A stretch of 64,000 nucleotides of DNA from contig NZ_LT828648.1 in assembly GCF_900169565.1 (NCBI RefSeq), positions 1,924,876 through 1,988,875 on the forward strand, read 5' to 3'. This document shows, in pieces, positions 2,911-16,841 of the stretch. Each line of letters opens with the position of its first letter. Position 1 is the first letter of the stretch. The stretch comes from Nitrospira japonica (lineage in GTDB: Bacteria; Nitrospirota; Nitrospiria; Nitrospirales; Nitrospiraceae). Below the pieces are notes generated by a model, which worked only from the letters and a program-made list of their open reading frames with translations, was not told the origin of the DNA and did not search any database. Made by a program: the position numbers and the translations under genes.

Positions 2911-4047
2911 ATGCAATCGGCCAACGCGACCAACTGGTCCCTCCTTGAACCCTGGTTACGGCTGCGGGCGATCAATGGGTTGGGAGATGCGACCATCCTC
3001 TCATTGCTACAGGTTTTTCCGACACCCGAAGTGGTGCTGAAGGCGGGATTCGACGAACTGATCGAACGGGGCTGCAGCCGGCGGTTGGCCGACGCGATCA
3101 AGAAGGGTCCTTCCAAGAGTGCTTGCCGACTGATCGACACAGAACTCTCCGAACTGCGGAAGACCCTGTATACTGTTTGGACCGTCCTTGATCCATCATA
3201 TCCTGCACGATTGCGGATGATTCCCGATCCTCCACCTCTGTTGTACGTCTCCGGCGCGTTGCTGGAAGAGGATGCGGTTGCAGTAGCAGTGGTGGGTGCT
3301 CGCCGAGCGACTGCCGGCGGATGTCTGTTCACTGAAGAATTGGCTAGAGATCTGGCGGCGGCCGGCGTCTCCGTCGTCAGCGGATTGGCCAGGGGGATTG
3401 ATGCGGCAGCGCATCGAGGCGCGCTCTCTGGCGGCGGCCGAACCATCGCCGTGCTCGGGTGCGGTATCGATCGGACCTATCCGTCGGAGCACGCAAGGCT
3501 TCGCTGCCAGATTGAGGAGCAGGGAGCGGTCGTGACCGAGGTGCCGATCGGAACGGCTCCCGAGCCGCACAATTTCCCCAGACGCAATCGCATCATCAGC
3601 GGGTTGTCGCTCGGGGTCGTGGTGACGGAGGCTGCCTTGGACAGCGGATCATTGATTACCGCTCAGCTGGCGTGTGAGCAGGGCAGAGAAGTCTTTGCCG
3701 TTCCCGGTTCGATCAAGGCAGATACGGGCCGCGGAACAAATGCACTGATCAAACAGGGTGCCGCCTTGGTCGAGTGCGCGGATGATGTGGTTCGAGTGTT
3801 GACTCCGCAGATCGATAAACCGATGCGCAAGAACCTGCAGAGGTCTCGATTCGACCCTGCGGGGCATGGGCCTCTGGACGGACAGGAAAGACTGGTATAT
3901 GAAGCGCTGTCACACGAACCCAGAACCGTGGACGAAGTGGCGGAACTCATTCATGAGCCGGTTGCTATCGTGACAGCGACACTCTTGTCTTTGGAACTCA
4001 ATCGGCAGGCTCGGCAACTAGGGGGGCAGCGCTTCGTTCGCGCGTAA
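2911..4047 (+). CDS. dprA: DNA-processing protein DprA/Smf
   Basis: Single-strand DNA-binding, RecA-loading protein of transformation and recombination. An N-terminal helix-hairpin-helix region covers about residues 10-65. The Rossmann-like core carries VVGARRAT, SGLARGIDAAAHRGAL, GCGIDRTYP and FPRRNRIISGLS. A C-terminal winged-helix domain covers about residues 315-378. Length of 378 residues is typical. It stands between rng and topA, an arrangement (dprA-topA) found in many bacteria. ATG 2911 is the first good start; no strong Shine-Dalgarno is seen. Confidence 0.93.
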   Translation: MQSANATNWSLLEPWLRLRAINGLGDATILSLLQVFPTPEVVLKAGFDELIERGCSRRLADAIKKGPSKSACRLIDTELSELRKTLYTVWTVLDPSYPARLRMIPDPPPLLYVSGALLEEDAVAVAVVGARRATAGGCLFTEELARDLAAAGVSVVSGLARGIDAAAHRGALSGGGRTIAVLGCGIDRTYPSEHARLRCQIEEQGAVVTEVPIGTAPEPHNFPRRNRIISGLSLGVVVTEAALDSGSLITAQLACEQGREVFAVPGSIKADTGRGTNALIKQGAALVECADDVVRVLTPQIDKPMRKNLQRSRFDPAGHGPLDGQERLVYEALSHEPRTVDEVAELIHEPVAIVTATLLSLELNRQARQLGGQRFVRA

Positions 4048-4138
4048 ACAGGACCCTATTCCCGAGATGAGTTGCATCGCGAGAAGAATTTTGGTACGGA
4101 TGGTACGGTAGGCAAGGCACTCATCCAGCGGAGCATCC

Positions 4139-6478
4139 ATGGCAAAGTCTCTCATCATCGTCGAGTCTCCGACGAAGGCCAAGACGATCACGAAGTATTT
4201 GGGGCGAGGATATACCGTCATCGCTTCCGTCGGCCATGTCAAGGATCTTCCCACCAGCAAGCTTGGCGTAGACCTTGAGCGCGATTTTGCTCCGCAGTAT
4301 GTCACAATCAAAGGGAAGTCGAAGGTGCTTGCTGAGATCAAGAAGAAAGCCGAAGAGGCCGATAAAGTGTTTCTCGCTCCTGACCCTGATCGCGAGGGAG
4401 AGGCGATCGCCTGGCACCTGGCGGAGGAGTTGAACGGCAAATCGAAAAAGAAGAAGGACGGGAAAGTCTTTCGTGTCCTCTTCAATGAGATTACGGAATC
4501 AGCCATCAAGCGGGCGCTGCAATCTCCCGGACAGATTGATATGAAGTTGGTCAATGCGCAGCAGGCGCGAAGGGTCCTGGATCGAATCGTCGGATATCAG
4601 GGAAGTCAGTTGTTATGGAACAAAGTGCGGCGCGGGCTGTCCATGGGACGGGTACAGTCGGTTGCCGTTCGGCTGATATGTGAGCGCGAGGCTGAGCGCG
4701 AAGCGTTTCGCACGGAGGAGTATTGGTCGATCACGGCGTTGTTGGCCGGAACGATACCCCCGCCGTTTGAAGCCCGACTGCACAGCATCAACGGAGAAGA
4801 AGCGTCGATTGGCACGGCCGAGCAGGCGCAGCGGATGGTATCGGCGCTTGAGGGGAAGACGTTTACGGTCACGTCCGTCGAGCGGAAGGAAAAGAAGCGG
4901 AACCCAGTGGCGCCGTTCATTACGAGTCGCTTGCAGCAGGAAGCGGCCAGAAAACTGCGATTTACCTCAAAAAAGACGATGACACTCGCGCAGCAGCTAT
5001 ACGAAGGGATTGAGATCGGAACGGAAGGGGCAACCGGCCTCATCACGTATATGAGAACGGATTCACCGAGAATATCCCAAGAGGCCATGGCTGACGTGCG
5101 ACAGGTCATCATGGAGCGATTCGGCCAGGAATATCTTCCTGGAACTCCAAACGTATATAAGACACAAAAGGCCGCACAGGAGGCGCATGAAGCCATCAGG
5201 CCGACATCCGCATCCCGAGATCCCGAATCGATCAAGCAATACCTTGAAGAAGACCAGTACCATCTCTACAAATTGATCTGGAACCGGTTCATTGCTTCCC
5301 AGATGGTGCCGGCTATCCTGGATGTAACGCGAGTGGAGTCCTCTCCGCTCAATACACCGGATCGCTATCTGTTCCGCTCGAGTGGAACGGTCGTCAAGTT
5401 TCCGGGCCACACGATTGTCTACATGGAGGGAGTCGATAAAGAACTGTTCTCCCAAAAGCCCAAGCAAGACGAAGAAACCGAGGACGGAGCCGAGCGACAG
5501 TTGCCGGTTCTTGCCGAAGGTGAGCGCCTTCGGTTGGTCGAACAGCCGGAGCAGACGATCGCGGGCATTACGTCCAAACAACACTTTACTCAGCCGCCCC
5601 CTCGTTACAACGAGGCTCTTCTCATCAAAGAACTGGAAGAAAAAGGCATTGGAAGGCCGTCCACGTATGCGGCCATCATTTCCACCATCCAGGACCGGAA
5701 GTACGTCGAAAAAATCGAGGGCAGGTTCATTCCTACGGAAACCGGTCGTACGGTAAACGATTTTTTGATGAAGGGGTTTCCCGACATCGTCAATGTTGAT
5801 TTCACCTCCCAACTCGAAGAGGAACTCGACGAGGTCGAGGAGGGGAACAAGCCATGGATCGATGCGGTGCGGGATTTCTACAATCCCTTCACGGCGGACT
5901 TGGAAAAAGCGAAGTCGATTCCCGGTCCAAAGGACACCGTTGAACCTCCCACGAATATCCCCTGCGAAAAGTGCGGAAGGATGATGGAGATCAAGTGGGG
6001 GCGAAACGGGAAGTTTCTCGCGTGCCCTGGCTACAAAGACGATCCGCCCTGCAAGAATACGCAGAACTTTGAGAAACTCCCTGACGGAACCATCAAGATT
6101 GTTCCTAAACAAGAGCTCACGACCGATCAGATTTGCGACAAGTGCGGAAGCCCGATGGTCGTGAAAACGGGACGGTTCGGTAAGTTCATCGCATGCTCGG
6201 CCTATCCCGCCTGCAAGACGACCAAGCCGCTCGCACTCGGCGTGAAATGTCCTCAGCCTGAATGTGGCGGAGACCTTGTCCAGAAACGCACCCGCAAGGG
6301 GCGTTCGTTCTACGCATGCAGTCGCTATCCTCAATGTGAATTCGCTCTCTGGGATCGTCCCGTCAATAAAGCCTGCCCAACCTGCAGCGCCCCGTTCCTG
6401 ATCGAGAAGGTCAGCAAACAGGACGGGAGGAGCGTCCAGTGCCGCAATGAAGATTGCGGCTATCGCGAAGCCGGGTAA
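4139..6478 (+). CDS. topA: DNA topoisomerase I
   Basis: Type IA topoisomerase relaxing negative supercoils. The Toprim domain begins at once (IIVESPTKAKTI with Glu9, then PDPDREGEAIAWHL). The active-site tyrosine is Y304 in TYMRTDSPRIS. The C-terminus holds four consecutive zinc-ribbon repeats, each opening with CxxC or a near variant (from about residue 610: CEKCGR, CDKCGS, CPQPECGG, CPTCSA), as in proteobacterial-type TopA. Start ATG 4139 is preceded by GGAG at about 4130. At 779 residues it is full length. Confidence 0.97.
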   Translation: MAKSLIIVESPTKAKTITKYLGRGYTVIASVGHVKDLPTSKLGVDLERDFAPQYVTIKGKSKVLAEIKKKAEEADKVFLAPDPDREGEAIAWHLAEELNGKSKKKKDGKVFRVLFNEITESAIKRALQSPGQIDMKLVNAQQARRVLDRIVGYQGSQLLWNKVRRGLSMGRVQSVAVRLICEREAEREAFRTEEYWSITALLAGTIPPPFEARLHSINGEEASIGTAEQAQRMVSALEGKTFTVTSVERKEKKRNPVAPFITSRLQQEAARKLRFTSKKTMTLAQQLYEGIEIGTEGATGLITYMRTDSPRISQEAMADVRQVIMERFGQEYLPGTPNVYKTQKAAQEAHEAIRPTSASRDPESIKQYLEEDQYHLYKLIWNRFIASQMVPAILDVTRVESSPLNTPDRYLFRSSGTVVKFPGHTIVYMEGVDKELFSQKPKQDEETEDGAERQLPVLAEGERLRLVEQPEQTIAGITSKQHFTQPPPRYNEALLIKELEEKGIGRPSTYAAIISTIQDRKYVEKIEGRFIPTETGRTVNDFLMKGFPDIVNVDFTSQLEEELDEVEEGNKPWIDAVRDFYNPFTADLEKAKSIPGPKDTVEPPTNIPCEKCGRMMEIKWGRNGKFLACPGYKDDPPCKNTQNFEKLPDGTIKIVPKQELTTDQICDKCGSPMVVKTGRFGKFIACSAYPACKTTKPLALGVKCPQPECGGDLVQKRTRKGRSFYACSRYPQCEFALWDRPVNKACPTCSAPFLIEKVSKQDGRSVQCRNEDCGYREAG

Positions 6479-7790: not shown

Positions 7791-9539
7791 CTATTGGTAG
7801 TCCTCATTCAACGAGTTCAAGAAGGAGGTTAAAGCCGGAAGGTCGCCGGCCGTCAGGGCGATGCCTTGAATCTGAATATCCCCGTTTCGCAAAGTCCCAG
7901 CTCGCGCTTGATCGGATGTGCCCCGATAGAACTGCAGGACATTACCTAATCCATCGAACTGTCCGGTATGCATGTATGGGGCAGAATGGCCAAGGTCGCG
8001 CAATCCCGGGGTCTTGAACCGTGCTATTGCCCGATCCAAAAGCACGGCGTTTGAGAGCGGACAAGGTTGCTGATCATCGCAGAGGATGGCTGTGATCTTA
8101 GCCTGGGGAGCCGGCATGTCGGGATTGGCAAATACGTTCCATGCCCCGAGATCCGTCAGTGCCGGGTTGGCCAAGACGGGGATTTCTCGGAAGGGCTCCG
8201 ATGCGTTCGGATGATTTTCTGTTGCAGGAAGGTACGCGTTGTAGTTCGCGTCACGTGTGGCAAGGTTAGGTATGACAAGTCCAGAGAATTGGCCGGATCC
8301 ATGAATGAGATCGTACTCTCTCTGAGTAGTCCCAGTATTGTGCAGTGTGAAATCCGTAAAGTTGGGAGCGGGGTGACAGGCCAGACAGTTACCGATCTTG
8401 CCTGCTGTCAACTCAGCAGGTGACGCTGGAATCGCAGCCGGCTCTGAAAGAAACATTTTCAAGCCTTGTAACTCCACTGCCCCAAAGACAAACGGCTGGG
8501 AATGGAACTGAAACTGGCCATCAGTTCTGTTCGGATTGGAGGTGACAAATTGCAATGTGCCGGCCAGCTCACGGGTTTGAATTAACTGCAGTAACCGCCG
8601 GCTGTAATCCATAGGAGTTTCGTTCGGATCCGGCTGCTGGGCCAGAGCATTGATCGTGAGGAAGACGTCAAAGGGGGAACGGATCAAGGCACCGTTGTCG
8701 TCCGTTTGTGAGAACAGGAGCCCGTTTACATAGGCGGCCACGACCTTCACCACAGCATCGAAAATCTCCTGATCCGTTCCTGAGCCGACTAAGACACGGA
8801 ATTCTGGTGGGAGACGAGACTCATCGGGGATCGCAGGATTGTTCCCTGTGAACAAGATCCGATAGGATAATCCGTCGAATTCACCGGTTGGATCGAACGA
8901 TCCGTCGTCCCCTCGAATGACGCGGGCGACGTGTGCGACGGCTTGTGCACGCTCTCCCGGCAACCATCCGAAGTTTCTTCCGGTAAAAGTTGCCGCGACA
9001 AGATCTTCCATCGAATTGAATTCCGTATCAAGATGGAAAAGGACGCCTCCTGGTCGATCCAAGGTCGAATTGACGAGCGGGGGAGAATTTCTGGGCGTAT
9101 GTGTCTTCCCATCCGCTCTTGCGGGGATGGGACTTCGGCGTGCGAAGTCTGCATAGGTTCGCATCCCGCCGCCGGGTGCGGTCAGGACGTCGTCGACAAA
9201 GTGGCAGGAGCGACAGTTCATCGATAGACCATTGAAAGGGCCGGGACTGATGGGAACGCCCGGAGTCATGGTCTCCACGTCTGCAACGACGGGATCACCA
9301 ATATTGGGATTGTTGATGTTCCCTCCATTGTCCACATATACGCTGAAGGCTTGTGCCAACCTTGTGTCCATGAACAACCGCTCGCCGACAGCTTCTTGGG
9401 CTCCCGGAGTACCTGTGGTTTGTACATTGGCCGTCCCGCTTCCGGAATCTCCTCCTCCCGAGCACCCCGTAGCACCGAGATACACAAACAGCCATAGAAA
9501 TAAAACGGAAAGAATTCGCGTAGGCCATTGACGGCTCAT
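7791..9539 (-). CDS. Di-haem cytochrome c peroxidase/MauG-family lipoprotein
   Basis: Predicted outer-membrane or periplasmic lipoprotein of the bacterial CCP/MauG family. The signal peptide ends in LGATGC with lipidated C26. Two c-type haem motifs are present: C109RSCH and C385LACH. The C-terminal segment HSAPYMHTGQFDGLG is typical of the family. These enzymes reduce peroxide or oxidise partners with electrons from small carriers. ATG 9539 was chosen because AGAGGA lies 7 bases upstream; the frame is open to 9716. It is last in a same-strand series with a porin, a lipoprotein, an FMN protein and a membrane protein. The physiological substrate cannot be read from sequence. Confidence 0.85.
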   Translation of the reverse strand: MSRQWPTRILSVLFLWLFVYLGATGCSGGGDSGSGTANVQTTGTPGAQEAVGERLFMDTRLAQAFSVYVDNGGNINNPNIGDPVVADVETMTPGVPISPGPFNGLSMNCRSCHFVDDVLTAPGGGMRTYADFARRSPIPARADGKTHTPRNSPPLVNSTLDRPGGVLFHLDTEFNSMEDLVAATFTGRNFGWLPGERAQAVAHVARVIRGDDGSFDPTGEFDGLSYRILFTGNNPAIPDESRLPPEFRVLVGSGTDQEIFDAVVKVVAAYVNGLLFSQTDDNGALIRSPFDVFLTINALAQQPDPNETPMDYSRRLLQLIQTRELAGTLQFVTSNPNRTDGQFQFHSQPFVFGAVELQGLKMFLSEPAAIPASPAELTAGKIGNCLACHPAPNFTDFTLHNTGTTQREYDLIHGSGQFSGLVIPNLATRDANYNAYLPATENHPNASEPFREIPVLANPALTDLGAWNVFANPDMPAPQAKITAILCDDQQPCPLSNAVLLDRAIARFKTPGLRDLGHSAPYMHTGQFDGLGNVLQFYRGTSDQARAGTLRNGDIQIQGIALTAGDLPALTSFLNSLNEDYQ

Positions 9540-9771
9540 AGGCATTCCTCTTTCTGATGGAATGTTGCAAATCTTTGTGAAAACACTATCTCGGCCTGCA
9601 TGCATCGGGTCTTTATCTTTCTGATATACGACGACGCCGAGAGACGATGCGAAAAACGATGCGAAAAACAATGTCATGTCCATTATCGACCGGAGAACCA
9701 TGCAGATATGCTCCATTCATCCGATTCAGCAGTTGCGTCCATTGATTTCTGACATCGTCATGGAGATTCCA
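9540..9771. other. Leader of the peroxidase gene with a 12-bp tandem repeat
   Basis: No convincing gene is seen here. The stretch precedes the minus-strand peroxidase gene and probably holds its promoter or mRNA leader. It contains an exact tandem duplication of CGATGCGAAAAA at 9645-9656 and 9657-9668. The peroxidase frame stays open through most of this region but without a Shine-Dalgarno or family similarity. Confidence 0.4.
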
Positions 9772-9906
9772 CTAGCCACCGCCGCTGATGGTGAGTAGGC
9801 GCTGCATCAAGATGCCCACAAAAAAATAGCCTAAGATCAGCAACTGTGATCTCGGGCTCTGGGTGATAACCTCTGGCCGCTCGGCATGGTAAAAGGACGG
9901 ATAGCG
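9772..9906 (-). other. Open frame with a membrane segment but no start codon
   Basis: Immediately after the stop of the membrane protein at 9912, a minus-strand frame runs 44 codons to TAG. It encodes a polar N-terminal part (RYPSFYHAERPEVITQSPRS) and a hydrophobic helix (QLLILGYFFVGILMQRLL). The composition is that of a one-helix membrane peptide. However, the codon before the first Arg is TAG and there is no ATG or GTG ahead of the helix; only TTG is available. It is either a small gene with a damaged start, the remnant of a longer C-terminus, or chance. Confidence 0.25.
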
Positions 9907-9911
9907 CTATC

Positions 9912-10430
9912 TCATCGATCCTCGTTCGTTTTTCCCGACATCAGCGGCTGCTCTAATACCCACATCTCGTAGAGAGGAATGGCCATCATGATAAGAAACC
10001 CGACGGTCATGAATACATCCCCCATCAGCATGGTTAGGAAGAACAGAGGCGAGACGTAGCTGATCAGCCAAGGTGACAGCAAATCCAACATCACTCCGCC
10101 GAACGCCATCCAGGTGGTCCCTATCTTGATCGCTGAGGTTGTGGCCGTGAGATAAAGAACATGGGCAAGGATGATGAAGACAACCGGCATTGTAAAAAGG
10201 TGAAAGTGAGTAACTTCCGCCAACTCCCGAAATGACATCGGCTCTCCAAACGTGGAGTCGGACCCTCGATAATGGTCGGCGATGCCTTGCGGAGATAGGC
10301 CGGTCATACTGTGTGCCCAGAGGAATGAAAAGGTGAATCCGGCCAAGATTAAAAATAAGAACAGCGTATACAGGAGCCGTATCTGTTTGTCGGAATCGCG
10401 AAGTCGAAACCGGGTATTAAAATTACGCAT
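9912..10430 (-). CDS. Four-helix membrane protein with histidines in helix 2
   Basis: Not assigned to a named family. The 172 residues predict four membrane helices at roughly 18-38, 73-95, 104-124 and 126-150. Helix 2 carries H75, H77 and H90, and H40 ends helix 1; such spacing could bind b-type haem, which is inference only. ATG 10430 was chosen (AGGAAGG 14 bases upstream); a TTG at 10472 would overlap the preceding gene. It lies directly downstream of the FMN-binding protein gene and upstream of the di-haem peroxidase, so a role passing electrons across or along the membrane is plausible. Confidence 0.65.
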   Translation of the reverse strand: MRNFNTRFRLRDSDKQIRLLYTLFLFLILAGFTFSFLWAHSMTGLSPQGIADHYRGSDSTFGEPMSFRELAEVTHFHLFTMPVVFIILAHVLYLTATTSAIKIGTTWMAFGGVMLDLLSPWLISYVSPLFFLTMLMGDVFMTVGFLIMMAIPLYEMWVLEQPLMSGKTNEDR

Positions 10431-10449
10431 TCGATACAGCGCACCTTCC

Positions 10450-11127
10450 TCAGTTGCCGAAAAGCATGCCAAAAAATCCCTTCTCGGCCTTCCGAGCAGC
10501 TACACTGTCACTGCCCAATCCAATCGGTTTGAGATAGTATTCATCGATCAGTACAAGGACGCGTTTGACTCCGGCGCTAAATGAACGAACTGACATCGTG
10601 GCGCCGCTGATATTAATGATGTCTCTATTGATACGAATAGGGTCACTGACCGTCTTGCCTTCGTACTGGGCGTTAAAGCGCTTGGTTCGGACTTCACTAC
10701 CTCTGGCCTCTCGAAACACCAACAATTCCACATTGGTGCATGCACCGGTAGGATCGACACCAACCATGTATGTCATGGGTTTGTGTTTGCCGATGGTGTT
10801 CTGGATCATCGCATACCCATCAATCTTTGTACCTGTTTCGCCGATGAATACCTCAAACCCTTCCTCTGGAAATTTCCAGCCGATGCGTTCTTCTATCTGG
10901 TTCTTCTTCTCTGGGGTCAGATGTATAGAGTCTTTCCGAATCCTCTCCGATGTGGGAAACATAAGCTTCAATGCATCGTCTTCCGTGAGGAACACCTCTG
11001 CATGGCTCATCTCCTGTTCGGTGAGGTAACGCTTCAACTCGGCATCCCAGATCCGCTCGGCCCATGCGGTCGAAGGAGCCAGAAGTGCAGCCAACAATAT
11101 GACAAACGGCCAGGTGCGTACGGTCAT
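10450..11127 (-). CDS. Periplasmic FMN-binding (ApbE-flavinylated) protein
   Basis: A secreted 225-residue protein with a Sec signal (cleavage after about residue 23, STAWA). The C-terminal half is an FMN_bind domain as in NqrC and RnfG. The motif S174-G-A-T177 is the site where ApbE attaches FMN through a phosphoester to threonine. An apbE gene lies 3 kb away (14225), which supports covalent flavinylation. The start ATGA overlaps the stop of the lipoprotein gene, so the two are translationally coupled. It probably acts as a one-electron carrier on the outer face of the inner membrane or in the periplasm. Confidence 0.85.
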   Translation of the reverse strand: MTVRTWPFVILLAALLAPSTAWAERIWDAELKRYLTEQEMSHAEVFLTEDDALKLMFPTSERIRKDSIHLTPEKKNQIEERIGWKFPEEGFEVFIGETGTKIDGYAMIQNTIGKHKPMTYMVGVDPTGACTNVELLVFREARGSEVRTKRFNAQYEGKTVSDPIRINRDIINISGATMSVRSFSAGVKRVLVLIDEYYLKPIGLGSDSVAARKAEKGFFGMLFGN

Positions 11128-11582
11128 GTCGTGGCGCAGCCTTTCTGATTCAATGTGGTTTTGATTCGATCCATGACCATGGTCTCGGATTCTTCCGACG
11201 GGTCAATCGGCCACCATTTTGTAGCCTCCTGCGTTATCCCCCCCTTGAGGTGCCACCGTTGGCGTGTTTCCAACACACTGACCGACACCACGTCATTCAG
11301 CGGCTTAAGCGCGACGGTCATGCGTGCCCGTTCTCGATTTCCAAATCCTTCCCGTTGAAACATGCCATAGGCGCGTTCCGCACCTTCCATTTCGACCCAG
11401 TTGGTCTCGATCAAGCCTTTCTCCTTGCTTTGGACTTGTATCGGTCGATCTTTTACCGATTCTAGAACCGCATCCCAGGCGATATCGTATGAGCATACGA
11501 AGTATTGGTCTTTGGCCCCGCTCATCGATGCACAGCCGGAACACATGAGTAAACCGATGATCACGAGAGCGGCTCTTTGCAC
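11124..11582 (-). CDS. Small lipoprotein of the flavinylation operon
   Basis: A 152-residue predicted lipoprotein: signal MQRAALVIIGLLMCSGC with lipobox CSGC. The mature part (YDIAWDAVLESV, KEKGLIETNW) resembles in style the BamC/NlpB-like alpha-beta lipoprotein domains, but I cannot assign a family firmly. It overlaps the FMN-binding protein gene by 4 bases and follows the porin gene after a strong hairpin. Co-expression with the flavoprotein suggests it anchors or assembles part of the same complex. Confidence 0.7.
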   Translation of the reverse strand: MQRAALVIIGLLMCSGCASMSGAKDQYFVCSYDIAWDAVLESVKDRPIQVQSKEKGLIETNWVEMEGAERAYGMFQREGFGNRERARMTVALKPLNDVVSVSVLETRQRWHLKGGITQEATKWWPIDPSEESETMVMDRIKTTLNQKGCATT

Positions 11583-11593
11583 GGATGCTCCCC

Positions 11594-11635
11594 GGAGGTT
11601 GTGAGCCTTTCCCAGAAGAAAGGCTCACAACCTCC
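11594..11635 (-). terminator. Perfect 18-bp intercistronic hairpin
   Basis: GGAGGTTGTGAGCCTTTC (11594-11611) is exactly complementary to 11618-11635, with a 6-nt loop. It lies between the porin stop (11640) and the start of the lipoprotein gene (11582). There is no T-run in either direction, so it may work as an mRNA processing or stabilising element that lets the porin be expressed more strongly than the downstream genes, rather than as a complete terminator. Confidence 0.5.
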
Positions 11636-11639
11636 TGTC

Positions 11640-13157
11640 TTAGAAATACGTTGCGGCCGAGATGACAAATGCGTTGTCATGGATTCGTTGTTGCGTGACG
11701 GGATTGAAAGCCATCGGCTGGTATTGGTAGCTCATCTTGAATACTGCATCCTCTATGGGTCGATAGTTCAACCCAAAAGAGATCTGCTCCAAATTGCCCC
11801 ATCCGCCAGTTCCATTGGTATTGTCCAAATTGGTGTTCACCCTGTCATATCTGATCACGGCAGTAAAAGTTGATCCCTCGCCGAATCGTTTGGGGGACAG
11901 CTTGGTCAAGAAAGAGGGCATAAAATGATAATTGCCCTGTATGTAGTAGCCCATCCCTCGCTGAGTGGGGGTGCCCTGTCCACTGTTGCCTGGGATCCCC
12001 GTGAGCACTGTGCCCGGTGCAAAGCCGATCGTGTTGCCCTGAACGGCCCGAGAATTTCCTCTCGCATAAGACCAGGCTGCCTCTCCAATCAACTCGAACG
12101 GACCGCGTTGAAATGTCCAGTCGATAGCCGTGATATTCAGTGGATTGTAATTGCTTGAGTTGTTGTTCGCATTTCCAAAGTAGGTCGATCCGGCGACCTC
12201 CATACCCAACATCGGGCTGTAGGCCAGACGTCCAACCACCGCTTTGCCGTTGTTGATATCGGCACCATCATGGCCGGAACAAGTCCGTTGGCGACCGTCT
12301 CGCGTGCCTTCCTGTTCGCTAACCAGAGGGGTTCCGTCGGCGCCATATCCGCAAGGGCCGGTTGTAAAATAAAACTCATAGTCTATCTTCCCGGTTCGTC
12401 CGGGATAGAAGGTGCCATAGAAACCGGCGCCTGTTTCCGACATGGTGGTCGGAACAATAAATTGGGCCACCAGCGGACGATCGGTTAAGTCGTTCAAAGG
12501 CGAATCGTGCAAGAGGTTAAATTTTCCGACTGGAAGCAATAGGATGCCGGCTCGAAGGTTGAAGGATTCCTTCACGAGATAGTCGATGTGCGCGAACTCA
12601 AGGCCGGTTTCGATTTCATTCTCGGAACTTTCGCGAATGCCGTGCTCGATTTCAAGTTCTGCCGCAAACTTCACGTGTTCTGTTACGTCGGCATAGAAAA
12701 AGGGAACAAATCGTTGCTGATCGAAATTATTGGTAATCCCAGGACGTCCATCACCAGCTTCTATGCTGGCTTTTTGCTGAGATCGGAATTGAATGTCCAT
12801 ATAGCCGCCAACGATGGCTTTTGGTGCTGCGACGAACGGCTTTGCATAGACCAACCGCCCTGAACCGGTTGAACCGAATGAAAGAGCAGGCTGTGATTCC
12901 GTGCGTCGTTCACGTCCGACTTCAGGCAACGGGCCGATGCCAGGTTGATCTCGCGGTCCTTCGCTTCGGATGACCTCCGGTCTTTCGACACCTTCAGGCA
13001 ATGTCGAACGTTCGTGTTTTTCGATCTCACGCATGCGCTTTTCCACTGCTTCGTCAACGAGCTTTTTGATATCCTCTGGGGTCATGTTCTCTGCCGACGC
13101 CTGAAATACTGGCAGACTTGCTATGACCAGAACCCCGAGTATTGCCCGAGTCCACAT
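11640..13157 (-). CDS. Outer-membrane porin, phosphate-selective OprO/P type
   Basis: A 505-residue secreted protein. A signal peptide (to about residue 22, VFQASA) is followed by a short charged helix (EDIKKLVDEAVEKRMREIEK) typical of porins that trimerise through a periplasmic coiled coil. The remainder alternates polar and aromatic residues as in a beta-barrel (GGYMDIQFRSQ, FNLRAGILLLPVGKFNLLHD) and ends in the terminal aromatic signature ISAATYF. It is the first gene of a minus-strand series leading into the flavoprotein and peroxidase genes. Substrate is unknown; the family includes anion- and carbohydrate-permeable porins. Confidence 0.8.
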   Translation of the reverse strand: MWTRAILGVLVIASLPVFQASAENMTPEDIKKLVDEAVEKRMREIEKHERSTLPEGVERPEVIRSEGPRDQPGIGPLPEVGRERRTESQPALSFGSTGSGRLVYAKPFVAAPKAIVGGYMDIQFRSQQKASIEAGDGRPGITNNFDQQRFVPFFYADVTEHVKFAAELEIEHGIRESSENEIETGLEFAHIDYLVKESFNLRAGILLLPVGKFNLLHDSPLNDLTDRPLVAQFIVPTTMSETGAGFYGTFYPGRTGKIDYEFYFTTGPCGYGADGTPLVSEQEGTRDGRQRTCSGHDGADINNGKAVVGRLAYSPMLGMEVAGSTYFGNANNNSSNYNPLNITAIDWTFQRGPFELIGEAAWSYARGNSRAVQGNTIGFAPGTVLTGIPGNSGQGTPTQRGMGYYIQGNYHFMPSFLTKLSPKRFGEGSTFTAVIRYDRVNTNLDNTNGTGGWGNLEQISFGLNYRPIEDAVFKMSYQYQPMAFNPVTQQRIHDNAFVISAATYF

Positions 13158-13271
13158 GGGACGCCTCCAGAATTTGAGGGTTAACCGAATTGTCTGACTC
13201 GGGACTCGATGGTCTCTGGTCGTGTAATTATTCTTCAGGTGTATTGTCTAGGCTGAGACATGTCCCTCCTT

Positions 13272-13454
13272 TCAAGAGATGGGCTTAGGAGAAAGGTCGG
13301 ACCATCCTACGATGGCTGTGAAGGGGATAATGACAATCCGTTTGCATCTCTTGCACTTCAACTCCAATCCCTTCTCCAAAACTTTTGCGATTAGCTGACC
13401 GCACTCGCAGCGTGCTTCTTGAACAGAGCAAGCTGAGGAAGAGACATTATTCAT
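13272..13454 (-). CDS. Com-like small zinc-ribbon protein
   Basis: A 60-residue protein with the paired cysteine pattern RCECGQLIAKV and KCKRCKRI, closely resembling phage Mu Com, the zinc-ribbon translational activator of mom. Such solitary Com-like genes occur in many genomes without a Mu prophage. No mom-like or other phage gene is seen here. It is upstream of and on the same strand as the porin gene; a Shine-Dalgarno-like AAAGGAGG overlaps its stop codon. Function in this setting is unknown. Confidence 0.65.
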   Translation of the reverse strand: MNNVSSSACSVQEARCECGQLIAKVLEKGLELKCKRCKRIVIIPFTAIVGWSDLSPKPIS

Positions 13455-13638
13455 AGCGTTGCAGGAACCAATATGTGAAATTGAGAACGATTATTGATAT
13501 TCTATTTGTGCATCTATAGTCAAGACCGGCAATTTCAGCCGGCAGTTCTCGAAAGGGCAAAGATCATTTCGACTACGGATTCCTTAGATGTATGTTGTAT
13601 ATATTCGATTTGTATAATGTTTTATGATTATTTTACGA

Positions 13639-14222
13639 ATGTCATTGGCTCATGCTGTTTTGGCGCAGGGGTGTGCCACGGACCTTGTGGACTGAAGGCG
13701 AAGAAAGTTTAGTAGGAAAATCCCTAGCCGTCGGTCAAGTCACTGCGGTTATCACCGGAGAAACTCAACGAATCTATCCGTCGGCCTTGCGATCATTCGA
13801 ATTGCTCAGCAAACGAACGTTTGAACGGGTTCGTGTGGAGTAGAATCCGATCTCCAGTAATTCATGGTGGCTCTGGCGCCGGGTGACTACGAACTTGTCC
13901 GCGTGCAAATAAGTGAAGGACCTTTCAGTCCATGGCAAATGGGTCTGTCATGTTTTCCATAAATGAGCATGAGCTCACGTATCTGGGTACTTGGCGGTTC
14001 GGAGTCGACTCGCCACGCTACGGGCGGATGGTGCTATTATCCATAGTGCTAAACGAAAGCGATAAGAACCAATTAGCAGAAACCGCGAAGCAGCAATCTG
14101 CTGCGATGGAAGTTCATTCGATGGTAACGACTTTTCCAAGCCTCGCTGAAAGCAAAGCACGGCTGTACGAAGTCATGTCCTATCCCCGGGTTCCTCCGTA
14201 TTTCCAGAATCATCAATGGTAG
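13639..14222 (+). pseudogene. Decayed lipoprotein gene next to apbE
   Basis: Pieces of one sensible protein lie in different frames. Frame of 13639 gives a signal-like MSLAHAVLAQGCA. Frame of 13652 gives VGKSLAVGQVTAVITGETQR to 13840. Frame of 13864 gives ESDLQ-stop-FMVALAPGDYELVRVQ. Frame of 13932 gives SVMFSINEHELTYLGTWRFG to the stop at 14222. Three frameshifts and a TAA (13858-13860) interrupt it. The GDYEL and YLGTW pattern is typical of small secreted or lipoprotein domains. The last segment overlaps the possible apbE start at 14216. Sequencing errors could mimic part of this, but four lesions make decay more likely. Confidence 0.6.
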
Positions 14223-14224
14223 AC

Positions 14225-15301
14225 ATGGCACGAGGCACCGTCCGGAACTCCATGCTGGCTATCGCAATGGCTTCGGCAGTCTTAATATCTGGTTGCAGCG
14301 CCTTTCCTAAGGACAACCAGTCCATAACAGTCACACGTACTCAAATGCATATGGGTACATTGGTGACCATTACAGCCGCGGCGCCCACCGAATCGGTGGC
14401 ATTGGCCGCGTCTACGGAAGGATTTTCCGAGATACACAGACTAGATGTGTTATTGAGCACTTGGATAAGTTCGAGCGAACTCTCCGCTGTAAATGCTGCT
14501 GCCGGAAAAGCACCTGTACGAGTTAGTTCGGATACGTTGCAGATCGTCAAACTGGCCTTGCGGGTAGCCGAATTGACGGACGGCGCATTCAACATTGCGA
14601 TAGGTCCGGCTGTCGACTTGTGGAATGTGATGGAAAGGCAGGACGTTCCCACGGTGGAGGAGTTGGAGCACGTGAGAGATCAAATAGTGCTCAGCGGGGT
14701 GCGGATAGATAATGCCGAACGGACCATTTTTCTGGAACGGGCCGGGATGAGGATTGATGTCGGAGGGATAGCGAAGGGATACGCCGCGGATCGGGCTGTG
14801 ATGCGAATGAAAAAGGCTGGGGCGACCGGTGGAATTGTTGCGCTCTCAGGAGATATTAAGGCGTTCGGTCGATTGCCCAAGGAGAAAAGGGCCACGGTCG
14901 GTATTCAACACCCACGAATGCCCGAAGAGCTGCTTCTTGTAATAGATTTGGATGATGAAGCGATTTCGACAGCAGGAGATTATGAGCGGTATTTTGAACG
15001 GGATGGAGTCCGATATCATCATATCCTTGATCCCGCAACACTTCAGCCTGCCAAGGAATGCCAAAGTGTCTCAATTATCGCGAAGGAAGGCGTCTGGGCT
15101 GACGGTCTCGATACGGGAATATTTGTGCTTGGCCCTGAACGCGGGATGCGCCTGATCGAAAGACTCGGCGACGTGCAGGCTATCATCGTCGATCGGGAGG
15201 GGAAAGTGCATATGTCCGCTGAACTTCGAAAGCGGGTCCGCCTGCATCTGGGAGAGGAAGAACAACCGTGGCAACAGGATACGGTGCTACGACGGCGTTA
15301 G
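14225..15301 (+). CDS. apbE: FAD:protein FMN transferase ApbE
   Basis: Mg-dependent enzyme that splits FAD and attaches FMN to threonine of FMN_bind-domain proteins in the periplasm. The protein is a lipoprotein (signal ending LISGC). Family motifs are present: MGTLVTIT, DGAFNIAIGPAVDLWN, IDVGGIAKGYAADRAV, SGDIKAFG, ISTAGDYERYF followed by YHHILDP, and ADGLDTGIFVLG. ATG 14216 is an alternative start 9 bases earlier that overlaps the decayed gene. The obvious substrate encoded nearby is the SGAT protein at 10450-11127. The 3' end overlaps the opposite exbD gene by 4 bases. Confidence 0.93.
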   Translation: MARGTVRNSMLAIAMASAVLISGCSAFPKDNQSITVTRTQMHMGTLVTITAAAPTESVALAASTEGFSEIHRLDVLLSTWISSSELSAVNAAAGKAPVRVSSDTLQIVKLALRVAELTDGAFNIAIGPAVDLWNVMERQDVPTVEELEHVRDQIVLSGVRIDNAERTIFLERAGMRIDVGGIAKGYAADRAVMRMKKAGATGGIVALSGDIKAFGRLPKEKRATVGIQHPRMPEELLLVIDLDDEAISTAGDYERYFERDGVRYHHILDPATLQPAKECQSVSIIAKEGVWADGLDTGIFVLGPERGMRLIERLGDVQAIIVDREGKVHMSAELRKRVRLHLGEEEQPWQQDTVLRRR

Positions 15302-15672
15302 GATCGCAGCACTTCAAGGCTGACTTGGTGAAAACCCAACCCGCGTACGTCATCGACGACGTTGACGAAGCGCTCTAGCACTGTAATCCTGTCCGCCCGA
15401 ACGAGGACGAGAGATTCCCGAGAATGGCTGATCAATTGGACCTTCAGACCTTCCTGCGATACCGGCTGGTCATTAAGGAACAAACTACCGTCGGAGGAGA
15501 GCGTAATGACAAGCGGGACATCCTTCCGCTCTCCCGATTCTTTCGCTTTTGCCAGGTCGACCGGAATATGTCCCGTTGTGATGAATGTGGCGGTCGTCAT
15601 GACGATGACGAGCAGGACCAGCATCACATCCACGAGGGGGATGACGTTAATCTGATCAATTTCACGTTCCAT
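15298..15672 (-). CDS. exbD: ExbD/TolR-family protein
   Basis: Inner-membrane component of a proton-driven ExbBD/TolQR motor. The single N-terminal helix (PLVDVMLVLLVIVMTT) contains the conserved aspartate of the proton path, D15. A periplasmic domain of about 85 residues follows. The 124-residue length is usual. It overlaps the ExbB gene start-to-stop by 11 bases, so the two form an operon. No TonB or TolA gene lies in the window, so whether the motor energises transport or cell-envelope functions is open; the Fur gene upstream favours iron uptake. Confidence 0.88.
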   Translation of the reverse strand: MEREIDQINVIPLVDVMLVLLVIVMTTATFITTGHIPVDLAKAKESGERKDVPLVITLSSDGSLFLNDQPVSQEGLKVQLISHSRESLVLVRADRITVLERFVNVVDDVRGLGFHQVSLEVLRS

Positions 15673-16087
15673 GCTGCACCTTGTACAGCGTGACGAGTTC
15701 AGAGACCCGCCGGCGCAACAGGTTATTCATGACTACGCAGGGGATAGCCACCAGCAGTCCCACGGCTGTGGCTTTGAGCGCCAGGCTCAAGCCGATCATA
15801 ATGGTATTGACCGCCATCTGACCGGTCGTTCCCATCGTATGAAACGTCAGCATGATCCCAAGAACGGTTCCGAGTAAACCGATGTAGGGGGCATTGGAAG
15901 CTACTGTACCAATGATGACGAGCCGCCTCGTCAGCGCAATCTCGAATACCTGTTGATTGGGATATTGCTTGAGATCGACTCGGCGATAGAAAAGCCAGCG
16001 CTCAACGGCTACCGCGACGCACCAGATACTCAGCAGAAAGAGGAGGCCAATCACTCCGTAGTCCACCGCATGCTTTAGAAAGTCCAT
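15662..16087 (-). CDS. exbB: MotA/TolQ/ExbB proton channel protein
   Basis: A short (141-residue) ExbB/TolQ family member with three hydrophobic segments: an N-terminal helix at about 11-32, and the conserved pair around SNAPYIGLLGTVLGIMLTF and LSLALKATAVGLLVAIPC. The conserved channel residues in the last two helices are kept. It is shorter than the 230-244 residues of enterobacterial ExbB, mainly through a reduced N-terminus and cytoplasmic loop, as seen in many compact ExbB proteins. GGAAGG precedes the start. The operon partner is the overlapping exbD. Confidence 0.88.
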   Translation of the reverse strand: MDFLKHAVDYGVIGLLFLLSIWCVAVAVERWLFYRRVDLKQYPNQQVFEIALTRRLVIIGTVASNAPYIGLLGTVLGIMLTFHTMGTTGQMAVNTIMIGLSLALKATAVGLLVAIPCVVMNNLLRRRVSELVTLYKVQHGT

Positions 16088-16113
16088 CAGTTGCGCCTTC
16101 CAGGGAGTTGAAC

Positions 16114-16130
16114 TTGAAAATAGTTATCAA
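16114..16130 (-). promoter_or_regulatory. Near-palindrome upstream of exbB, candidate Fur-family operator
   Basis: TTGAAAATAGTTATCAA is AT-rich and nearly self-complementary (TTGA-AA/TT-TCAA arms). It lies 27 bases upstream of the exbB start, and a Fur-family regulator gene begins its 3' end 143 bases further upstream. The size and base composition fit Fur-type operators, but it is not a close match to the classical enterobacterial Fur box. Confidence 0.35.
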
Positions 16131-16272
16131 CTTGTCGAGGCGTAAGCTAACAAAGTTCAGAATCCTGTGTCAACCAACCTGATCAGCCATCATAGGCTTA
16201 ACTTTCCCCTGGACTTGCGTGTACTTGCAGGCGTCCCGGTCAAACACCAGACAGGTACTGAATTCCATGGCG

Positions 16273-16710
16273 TCAGTGGCGACAGTGGGAGCAGAGTCCG
16301 TAGAGCTCGAGTCGATGTGTTTGGATCGTAAAGCCGTTTTTCGCCGCGACCTCTTCCTGAAGTCGTTCAATTTCACAATTTTCGAATTCAATGATCTTTC
16401 CGCACCCCGTGCAAATCAGATGATCGTGATGCCCCTTGTGCGAGATATTGTCGTATTGAGTTTGTGAGCCGAAATGCCGGGCCTGTGCAAGACCGGCGTC
16501 GCAAAAGAGGTTTAGGGTTCGGTAGATAGTCGCCAATCCGAGGTGGGGATCGGTCTTTGCCAGTTGGTGGTACATGGCCTCGGCTGTAATGTGCTCCTGC
16601 CGTAGGAATGCGCTCAGAATGAGCTCTCGCTGGCGTGTAAACTTCAATTGATGTCTCGCCAAGTGTTCCTTGAGCGCATCCATTTCTTTCGGGCTCTTTC
16701 CTGATGCCAT
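16273..16710 (-). CDS. Fur-family metal-responsive transcriptional regulator
   Basis: A 145-residue regulator. The N-terminal winged helix contains TRQRELILSAFL and GLATIYRTLNLF; the dimerisation domain has the metal-binding HKGHHDHLIC followed by CTGCG and the C-terminal LCSHC, so it has two CxxC structural zinc motifs. Whether it senses iron (Fur), peroxide (PerR) or zinc (Zur) is not certain; the iron context favours Fur. ATG 16710 has GGAGG 10 bases upstream; the ATG at 16719 abuts that site and is unlikely. Same strand as exbBD downstream, which it may control. Confidence 0.88.
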   Translation of the reverse strand: MASGKSPKEMDALKEHLARHQLKFTRQRELILSAFLRQEHITAEAMYHQLAKTDPHLGLATIYRTLNLFCDAGLAQARHFGSQTQYDNISHKGHHDHLICTGCGKIIEFENCEIERLQEEVAAKNGFTIQTHRLELYGLCSHCRH

Positions 16711-16841
16711 AACGGACATACCTCCACGGACCGAGTATTAAAAACGAAATCATGAGCTTGGTCAAGGGGGTTGCAATTGACGACTCGACGGCCGCTGTCT
16801 ATAGTCGTGGCCGGTTTTGCAGCGGACAAGGAATAGATGTC

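Follow-up and report, generated by a model that had tools for sequence, protein, structure and literature searches.

Flavinylation-based extracytosolic electron-transfer systems have been described by Meheust et al. in 2021 (PMC8238504), in which the flavin transferase ApbE, a carrier of the FMN_bind family and a membrane protein occur together, with links to Fur and to iron transporters. An iron link is published there for flavinylated systems in which the membrane partner is PepSY-like or MsrQ-like. The same combination is present in a 64,000-nucleotide stretch of Nitrospira japonica (contig NZ_LT828648.1, positions 1,924,876 to 1,988,875), which is called the window here at its full length and which belongs to a closed 4.08-Mb genome. 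The locus differs from these systems in that its membrane protein, a four-helix protein encoded at 9912..10430 on the minus strand and labelled TM4, matches no Pfam family of the five classes of membrane protein distinguished there, and in that a porin and a BamC-like lipoprotein are added; neither Nitrospira nor porins are mentioned in its main text. It is a conserved, apparently iron-regulated gene set, probably for flavin electron transfer, in Nitrospira and its relatives. The system is of an already known kind, the iron-linked flavinylated systems, and its membrane partner appears to be new.

Other known systems share one or another feature with the locus. The DUF4405 or FezC membrane cytochromes are, like TM4, small histidine-containing membrane proteins encoded beside flavinylated proteins and linked to iron, and their haem sites are proposed to arise by homodimerisation (PMC11334425). 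By analogy, TM4 could form haem sites as a homodimer; it lacks, however, a match to DUF4405 or any other Pfam family, and its haem is hypothetical. RnfG and NqrC share the FMN_bind fold and the flavinylation motif with the flavoprotein of the window, and RnfG is its closest solved relative, but no Rnf or Nqr partner genes lie in the neighbourhood of the module, and the curated NCBIfam cut-offs for RnfG are not reached (25.8 bits against 205, and 15.7 against 102). The iron-uptake systems P19/FTR1 and EfeUOB have in common with the locus the theme of a periplasmic redox partner and an iron importer, and in one relative (L056, 9013-9465) an EfeO-like cupredoxin-type protein is encoded between the porin and ApbE-FMN_bind; FTR1, however, is missing from 30 of 31 genomes of the family and present in one. 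TM4 together with the porin and lipoprotein was not found described in the available portions of PMC8238504 or PMC11334425, and no paper on this cluster was among the matches listed for Nitrospira with ApbE or flavinylation.

The operon is read from the minus strand. It begins with a zinc-ribbon-like protein of 60 amino acids (13272..13454, CxC...CxxC, recognised by conservation), which was missed in the earlier reading and for which no Pfam family was matched. The outer-membrane porin (11640..13157; Porin_O_P, 21.3 bits against a cut-off of 20.9), the lipoprotein with a fold like the N-terminal domain of BamC (11124..11582), the exported FMN_bind protein (10450..11127; PF04205, E 1.3e-7 and above the cut-off, and its motif) and TM4 follow, with ApbE, which carries a lipoprotein signal, reading divergently (14216..15301, plus strand; PF02424, E 1.6e-80). 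All the genes named in the original prediction, namely those for the porin, lipoprotein, FMN_bind protein, four-helix protein, MauG/CCP-like protein, ApbE, ExbB and ExbD, Fur-family regulator and two bacterioferritins, do lie where it had placed them or close by. Of the overlaps it had claimed, the one of 4 nucleotides between the lipoprotein and FMN_bind genes stands. The membrane protein, taken there to be 186 amino acids long from a TTG at 10472, should instead start at the ATG at 10430 and have 172, because nearly all relatives begin there with MRNF or MKNF; its gene therefore does not overlap the FMN_bind gene.

TM4 and the FMN_bind protein were each searched in 245 Nitrospirota genomes, and the good matches were counted. 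It was observed that both fall in an identical set of 74 genomes. In 72 of these the two genes share a strand and are at most 250 bp apart, FMN_bind preceding TM4, in one the distance is 316 bp, and in one they lie on two contigs. As the genomes are related, the Fisher value for this co-occurrence cannot be read as a true probability, but eleven genomes of the same family are without both, and such repeated joint absence within a family is telling. Co-occurrence in related genomes, the lack of which the original prediction had named as one possible refutation, is thus borne out for the core of the module. In the family and the order, the arrangement is that of the window, with divergent ApbE followed by zinc-ribbon protein, porin, lipoprotein, FMN_bind and TM4. 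In other orders, Fur, the zinc-ribbon protein, the porin, ApbE-FMN_bind and TM4 follow each other on one strand, with Fur sometimes placed after TM4. The flavin part of the gene set in the window is a deeply conserved module.

The SGAT flavinylation site proposed earlier at T177 of the FMN_bind protein was confirmed, its threonine codon being 10597-10599. The motif [S/T]GA[S/T], as defined in PMC8238504, is kept in 71/71 homologues, and FMN is predicted to be covalently bound at Thr177. Since the closed genome holds one ApbE gene and one FMN_bind gene, each is the only candidate partner of the other from these families. Among the loci long enough to judge each gene, which is the basis of all such counts here, ApbE is present in 22/23 of the same family, 7/8 of the same order and 5/5 of other orders. 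In two relatives from other orders, ApbE and FMN_bind form a single open reading frame (L056, 9481-11004, plus strand; L058, 9516-11042, minus strand), as is apparently also the case in G161, G119 and G173. In the fused frames of L056 and L058, a twin-arginine motif, SRRRFL, separates the two domains, and there is no export signal before ApbE. This suggests either that the flavin would be attached before export or that translation may start internally.

The module may serve as a Fur-controlled electron path from quinol to flavin that reduces periplasmic ferric iron during uptake, a reading to which we give a probability of roughly 0.55. It is based on the co-occurrence, the unbroken motif, the single ApbE/FMN_bind pair and the fusion of the two in some relatives, a Fur-like site, the iron-transport neighbours, the absence of FeoB and rarity of FTR1 and NRAMP in the family genomes searched, the many TonB receptor matches, the CxxCH of distant TM4 homologues and the published iron links of flavinylated systems. 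At iron shortage, Fur would leave its operator at 13477-13501. ApbE would flavinylate the exported FMN_bind protein at Thr177, and TM4 would pass electrons from the inner-membrane quinol pool to this flavin at the periplasmic side. The flavoprotein could then reduce ferric iron or ferric chelates that arrive via TonB receptors or via the porin, whose periplasmic face the BamC-like lipoprotein would occupy. The freed iron would go on to an importer in the inner membrane; in most relatives, the ferric ATP-binding cassette (ABC) transporter of the same cluster may play this part. The covalent FMN, a haem or quinol site in TM4, the direction of electron flow, iron as the substrate and the roles of porin and lipoprotein are inferred.

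TM4 is the least familiar component of this scheme. No Pfam family was matched by the window protein or by 19 homologues; NapH-like, MsrQ-like, PepSY-like, DsbD, NQR/RNF-like and DUF4405 domains were found neither in TM4 (E<=1) nor in the homologues (E<=0.1), and against solved structures there was no match (best E 0.064). The named genomes among the relatives retrieved by the TM4 search are all Nitrospira, and neither TM4 nor its cytochrome form, described below, was on the plasmids searched. In the alignment of homologues, Tyr54, His75, His77 and Phe110 are invariant in all 19, and His90 is invariant in all the members partnered with FMN. The positively charged N-terminus and the four helices would place His75 and His77 close to the periplasmic end of helix 2 and His90 thirteen residues deeper. 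Such a site would also suit an iron or metal permease, with Fe(III) being reduced by the flavoprotein at the membrane and Fe(II) then entering through the histidine and tyrosine residues of TM4; the invariant His75, His77 and Tyr54 near the periplasmic face fit this, as does the finding that FeoB, FTR1, NRAMP and FbpA were not found in the N. japonica genome. Distant homologues from the same phylum (L064-L067, L069), however, carry CxxCH in loop 1, keep the HxH and the tyrosine and lack His90. A c-type haem motif in this periplasmic loop argues for electron transfer by TM4 and fits it better than import. Furthermore, the genes after the cytochrome-form TM4 in L069 (9602-12033) encode a cytochrome c and then a protein that has CxxCH and a C-terminal part resembling a barrel, reminiscent of the Cyc2-type porin cytochromes. 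The permease is thus considered unlikely and an electron conduit preferred, mainly for the CxxCH form of the distant homologues and the exchange of flavin for cytochrome. TM4, which co-occurs perfectly with the flavoprotein, is a candidate for its membrane electron-transfer partner, with a putative haem or quinol site. Exchange of flavin and cytochrome of such a kind is known in other systems (PMC8238504).

Both forms of TM4 are present in L064, along with a gene that resembles the FMN_bind protein and lacks the flavinylation motif. At 3928-5849 of this locus, a TM4 homologue, the motif-less gene and the cytochrome-form TM4 stand in a row downstream of the gene for a P-type ATPase.

Every locus that extends far enough has the porin (25/25 of the same family, 8/8 of the same order, 4/4 of other orders and 2/2 of other classes); for the zinc-ribbon reading frame, the corresponding counts are 24/24, 8/8, 4/4 and 1/2. 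The lipoprotein occurs in 24/25 same-family and 8/8 same-order loci and is not seen in deeper relatives. Its sequence match to Lipoprotein_18 is weak (E 7.5e-4). A structure model of fair quality (predicted local distance difference test, pLDDT, 77.5) resembles BamC in its N-terminal domain (Foldseek E 1.7e-5; Z 11.3 over 102 residues at a root-mean-square deviation of 3.6). The protein has 152 amino acids and a single domain, the second, C-terminal domain of BamC being absent, and is therefore not BamC; it may sit at the periplasmic side of the porin. Across the family, one slot is occupied by either of two porin types, and in a locus of the same genus (L047, 8317-13257) the lipoprotein, FMN_bind and TM4 genes stand between two porin genes that differ in type. 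The constant company of porin and carrier could also point to a respiratory or extracellular electron-transfer chain, with the porin as the place where electrons pass the outer membrane and with the iron genes adjacent by chance. The gene order of L069, where cytochrome-type TM4 precedes the cytochrome c and barrel-like genes, would agree with such a chain; the porin of the window, however, has no cofactor motif, and the Fur-like site, the Fur gene and the ferric transporter recur across orders. Such a chain is accordingly given only a small chance of being the right explanation.

Iron control is suggested by the DNA ahead of the operon. Some 55 bp ahead of the zinc-ribbon gene (roughly -50 to -70), most family loci have the site GATAxTAATAATCGTTCTCAATTTC, which matches the Fur consensus at 15/19 positions; it usually ranks best within its 20-kb locus, and 0.8% of random 150-nucleotide windows reach 15. 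At the same place in the window (13477..13501, minus strand), two overlapping matches of 13/19 form a Fur-box-like element, and the site is a likely candidate for a Fur operator. A second Fur-like site (16110-16128, 13/19) lies directly upstream of ExbB, where the genes for ExbD (15298..15672), ExbB (15662..16087, exbB2 equivalog) and a Fur-family regulator (16273..16719), all recognised by family matches, are found on the minus strand. An operator of the Fur type suggests expression at iron scarcity, and covalent FMN generally has a low potential. Both speak against a reverse flow, in which the flavoprotein would take electrons from a periplasmic reductant, for instance Fe(II) or some other metal, with TM4 feeding the quinone pool or serving detoxification. 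The direction of flow is not readable from sequence, and no result favours the reverse one, which is held to be quite improbable.

The iron neighbourhood with possible Fur control, as put forward in the original prediction, gains from the relatives, which add a ferric-iron ABC transporter to the cluster. In most of the family, the order is Fur, FbpA, FbpB, FbpC, ExbB, ExbD, TonB and then the module; the FbpABC genes, which stand between Fur and ExbB in the relatives, are absent from the genus of N. japonica. The FbpA homologue matches the Fe(3+)-binding protein 7li0 with 178 bits and carries the NxYY tyrosine pair. A 2-aminoethylphosphonate-binding protein, the nearest NCBIfam assignment, was rejected for it, as all these scores are far below cut-off and solved ferric-binding proteins match far better. 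FeoB was found in 0/69 family genomes, while controls gave matches, and NRAMP is absent from 29/31 and present in two. The N. japonica genome has 22 matches to TonB-dependent receptors and one strong match to a FecCD-type permease, a few kb from one of these receptors.

Several observations weigh against the proposed reduction of ferric iron during uptake. Beyond the FecCD-type permease, no importer for reduced iron was identified in this genome. FbpA is missing from the genome and the genus, though the module is present in two of three sampled members of the genus, and in eight genomes of the family FbpA occurs in the absence of the module. The window's own Fur-like site reaches only 13/19. 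TM4 shows no clear haem-binding pattern, and its AlphaFold model, built from eight close sequences, was too poor (pLDDT 53) and was rejected for any fold search. The differing distributions also led to the rejection of FbpABC as an obligate partner of the module; the two are neighbours and not one machine, perhaps within a shared regulon.

Immediately downstream of TM4, a strong hairpin, AGAGCCC...GGGCTCT with a run of T behind it, is present in many relatives; the stem and its position are kept while the stem sequence varies. The corresponding element of the window (9821..9860, minus strand) is taken as the Rho-independent terminator closing the operon. It was accepted for its conservation in relatives and not for folding in the window, where a simple terminator scan did not list it and a 101-nucleotide stretch folded no better than shuffles (z 0.27). 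The transcript should therefore end before the next gene, a di-haem MauG/MbnH-like lipoprotein (7791..9545, minus strand) with two CxxCH motifs (CRSCH and CLACH) and a MauG/MbnH family score of 47 bits against a cut-off of 363; it probably starts at the ATG at 9545 or 9539 and not at 9716. As the terminator ends the operon before it, this gene is probably a separate transcription unit. It occurs in 14/25 same-family, 4/8 same-order and 0/6 other-order loci that keep the module, and is a dispensable neighbour, not a part of the module. It had been proposed that the MauG/CCP gene belongs to the set, that electrons are delivered to its product and, perhaps, that peroxide is removed. None of the three is supported, given a gene that lies behind the terminator and is missing from about half of the relatives. 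A single pathway from quinol through TM4 and the FMN protein to a di-haem peroxidase or oxidase would profit from the gene being on the same strand and nearby in roughly every second locus of the family and the order; its absence from 11/25, 4/8 and 6/6 loci and the terminator in between make such a pathway very improbable.

In most family loci, an HD-domain gene lies between TM4 and the MauG/CCP gene (L032, 10629-11339, and others), and it is missing in the window. Upstream of ApbE, comparison with relatives reveals a remnant of a lipoprotein gene (13600..14222, plus strand): the gene, of about 212 amino acids in L045 and L032, is split in the window into at least three reading frames and has decayed.

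Nitrospira are major nitrite oxidisers, with complete ammonia oxidisers among them, and have a high need for iron. A conserved, Fur-headed flavin module would give candidate genes for iron reduction and uptake in these bacteria, FeoB being absent from all 69 family genomes searched. Tentatively, and at somewhat less than even odds, TM4 may found a new class of electron conduits in the membrane, which partners flavinylated carriers in iron assimilation, has paralogues with a c-type haem in their own periplasmic loop and gives Nitrospirota without FeoB, and mostly without FTR1 and NRAMP, a reductive iron uptake. The module would extend the known membrane partners of flavinylated proteins by one more class and would show one membrane protein family paired with flavin in one setting and with c-type haem in another.

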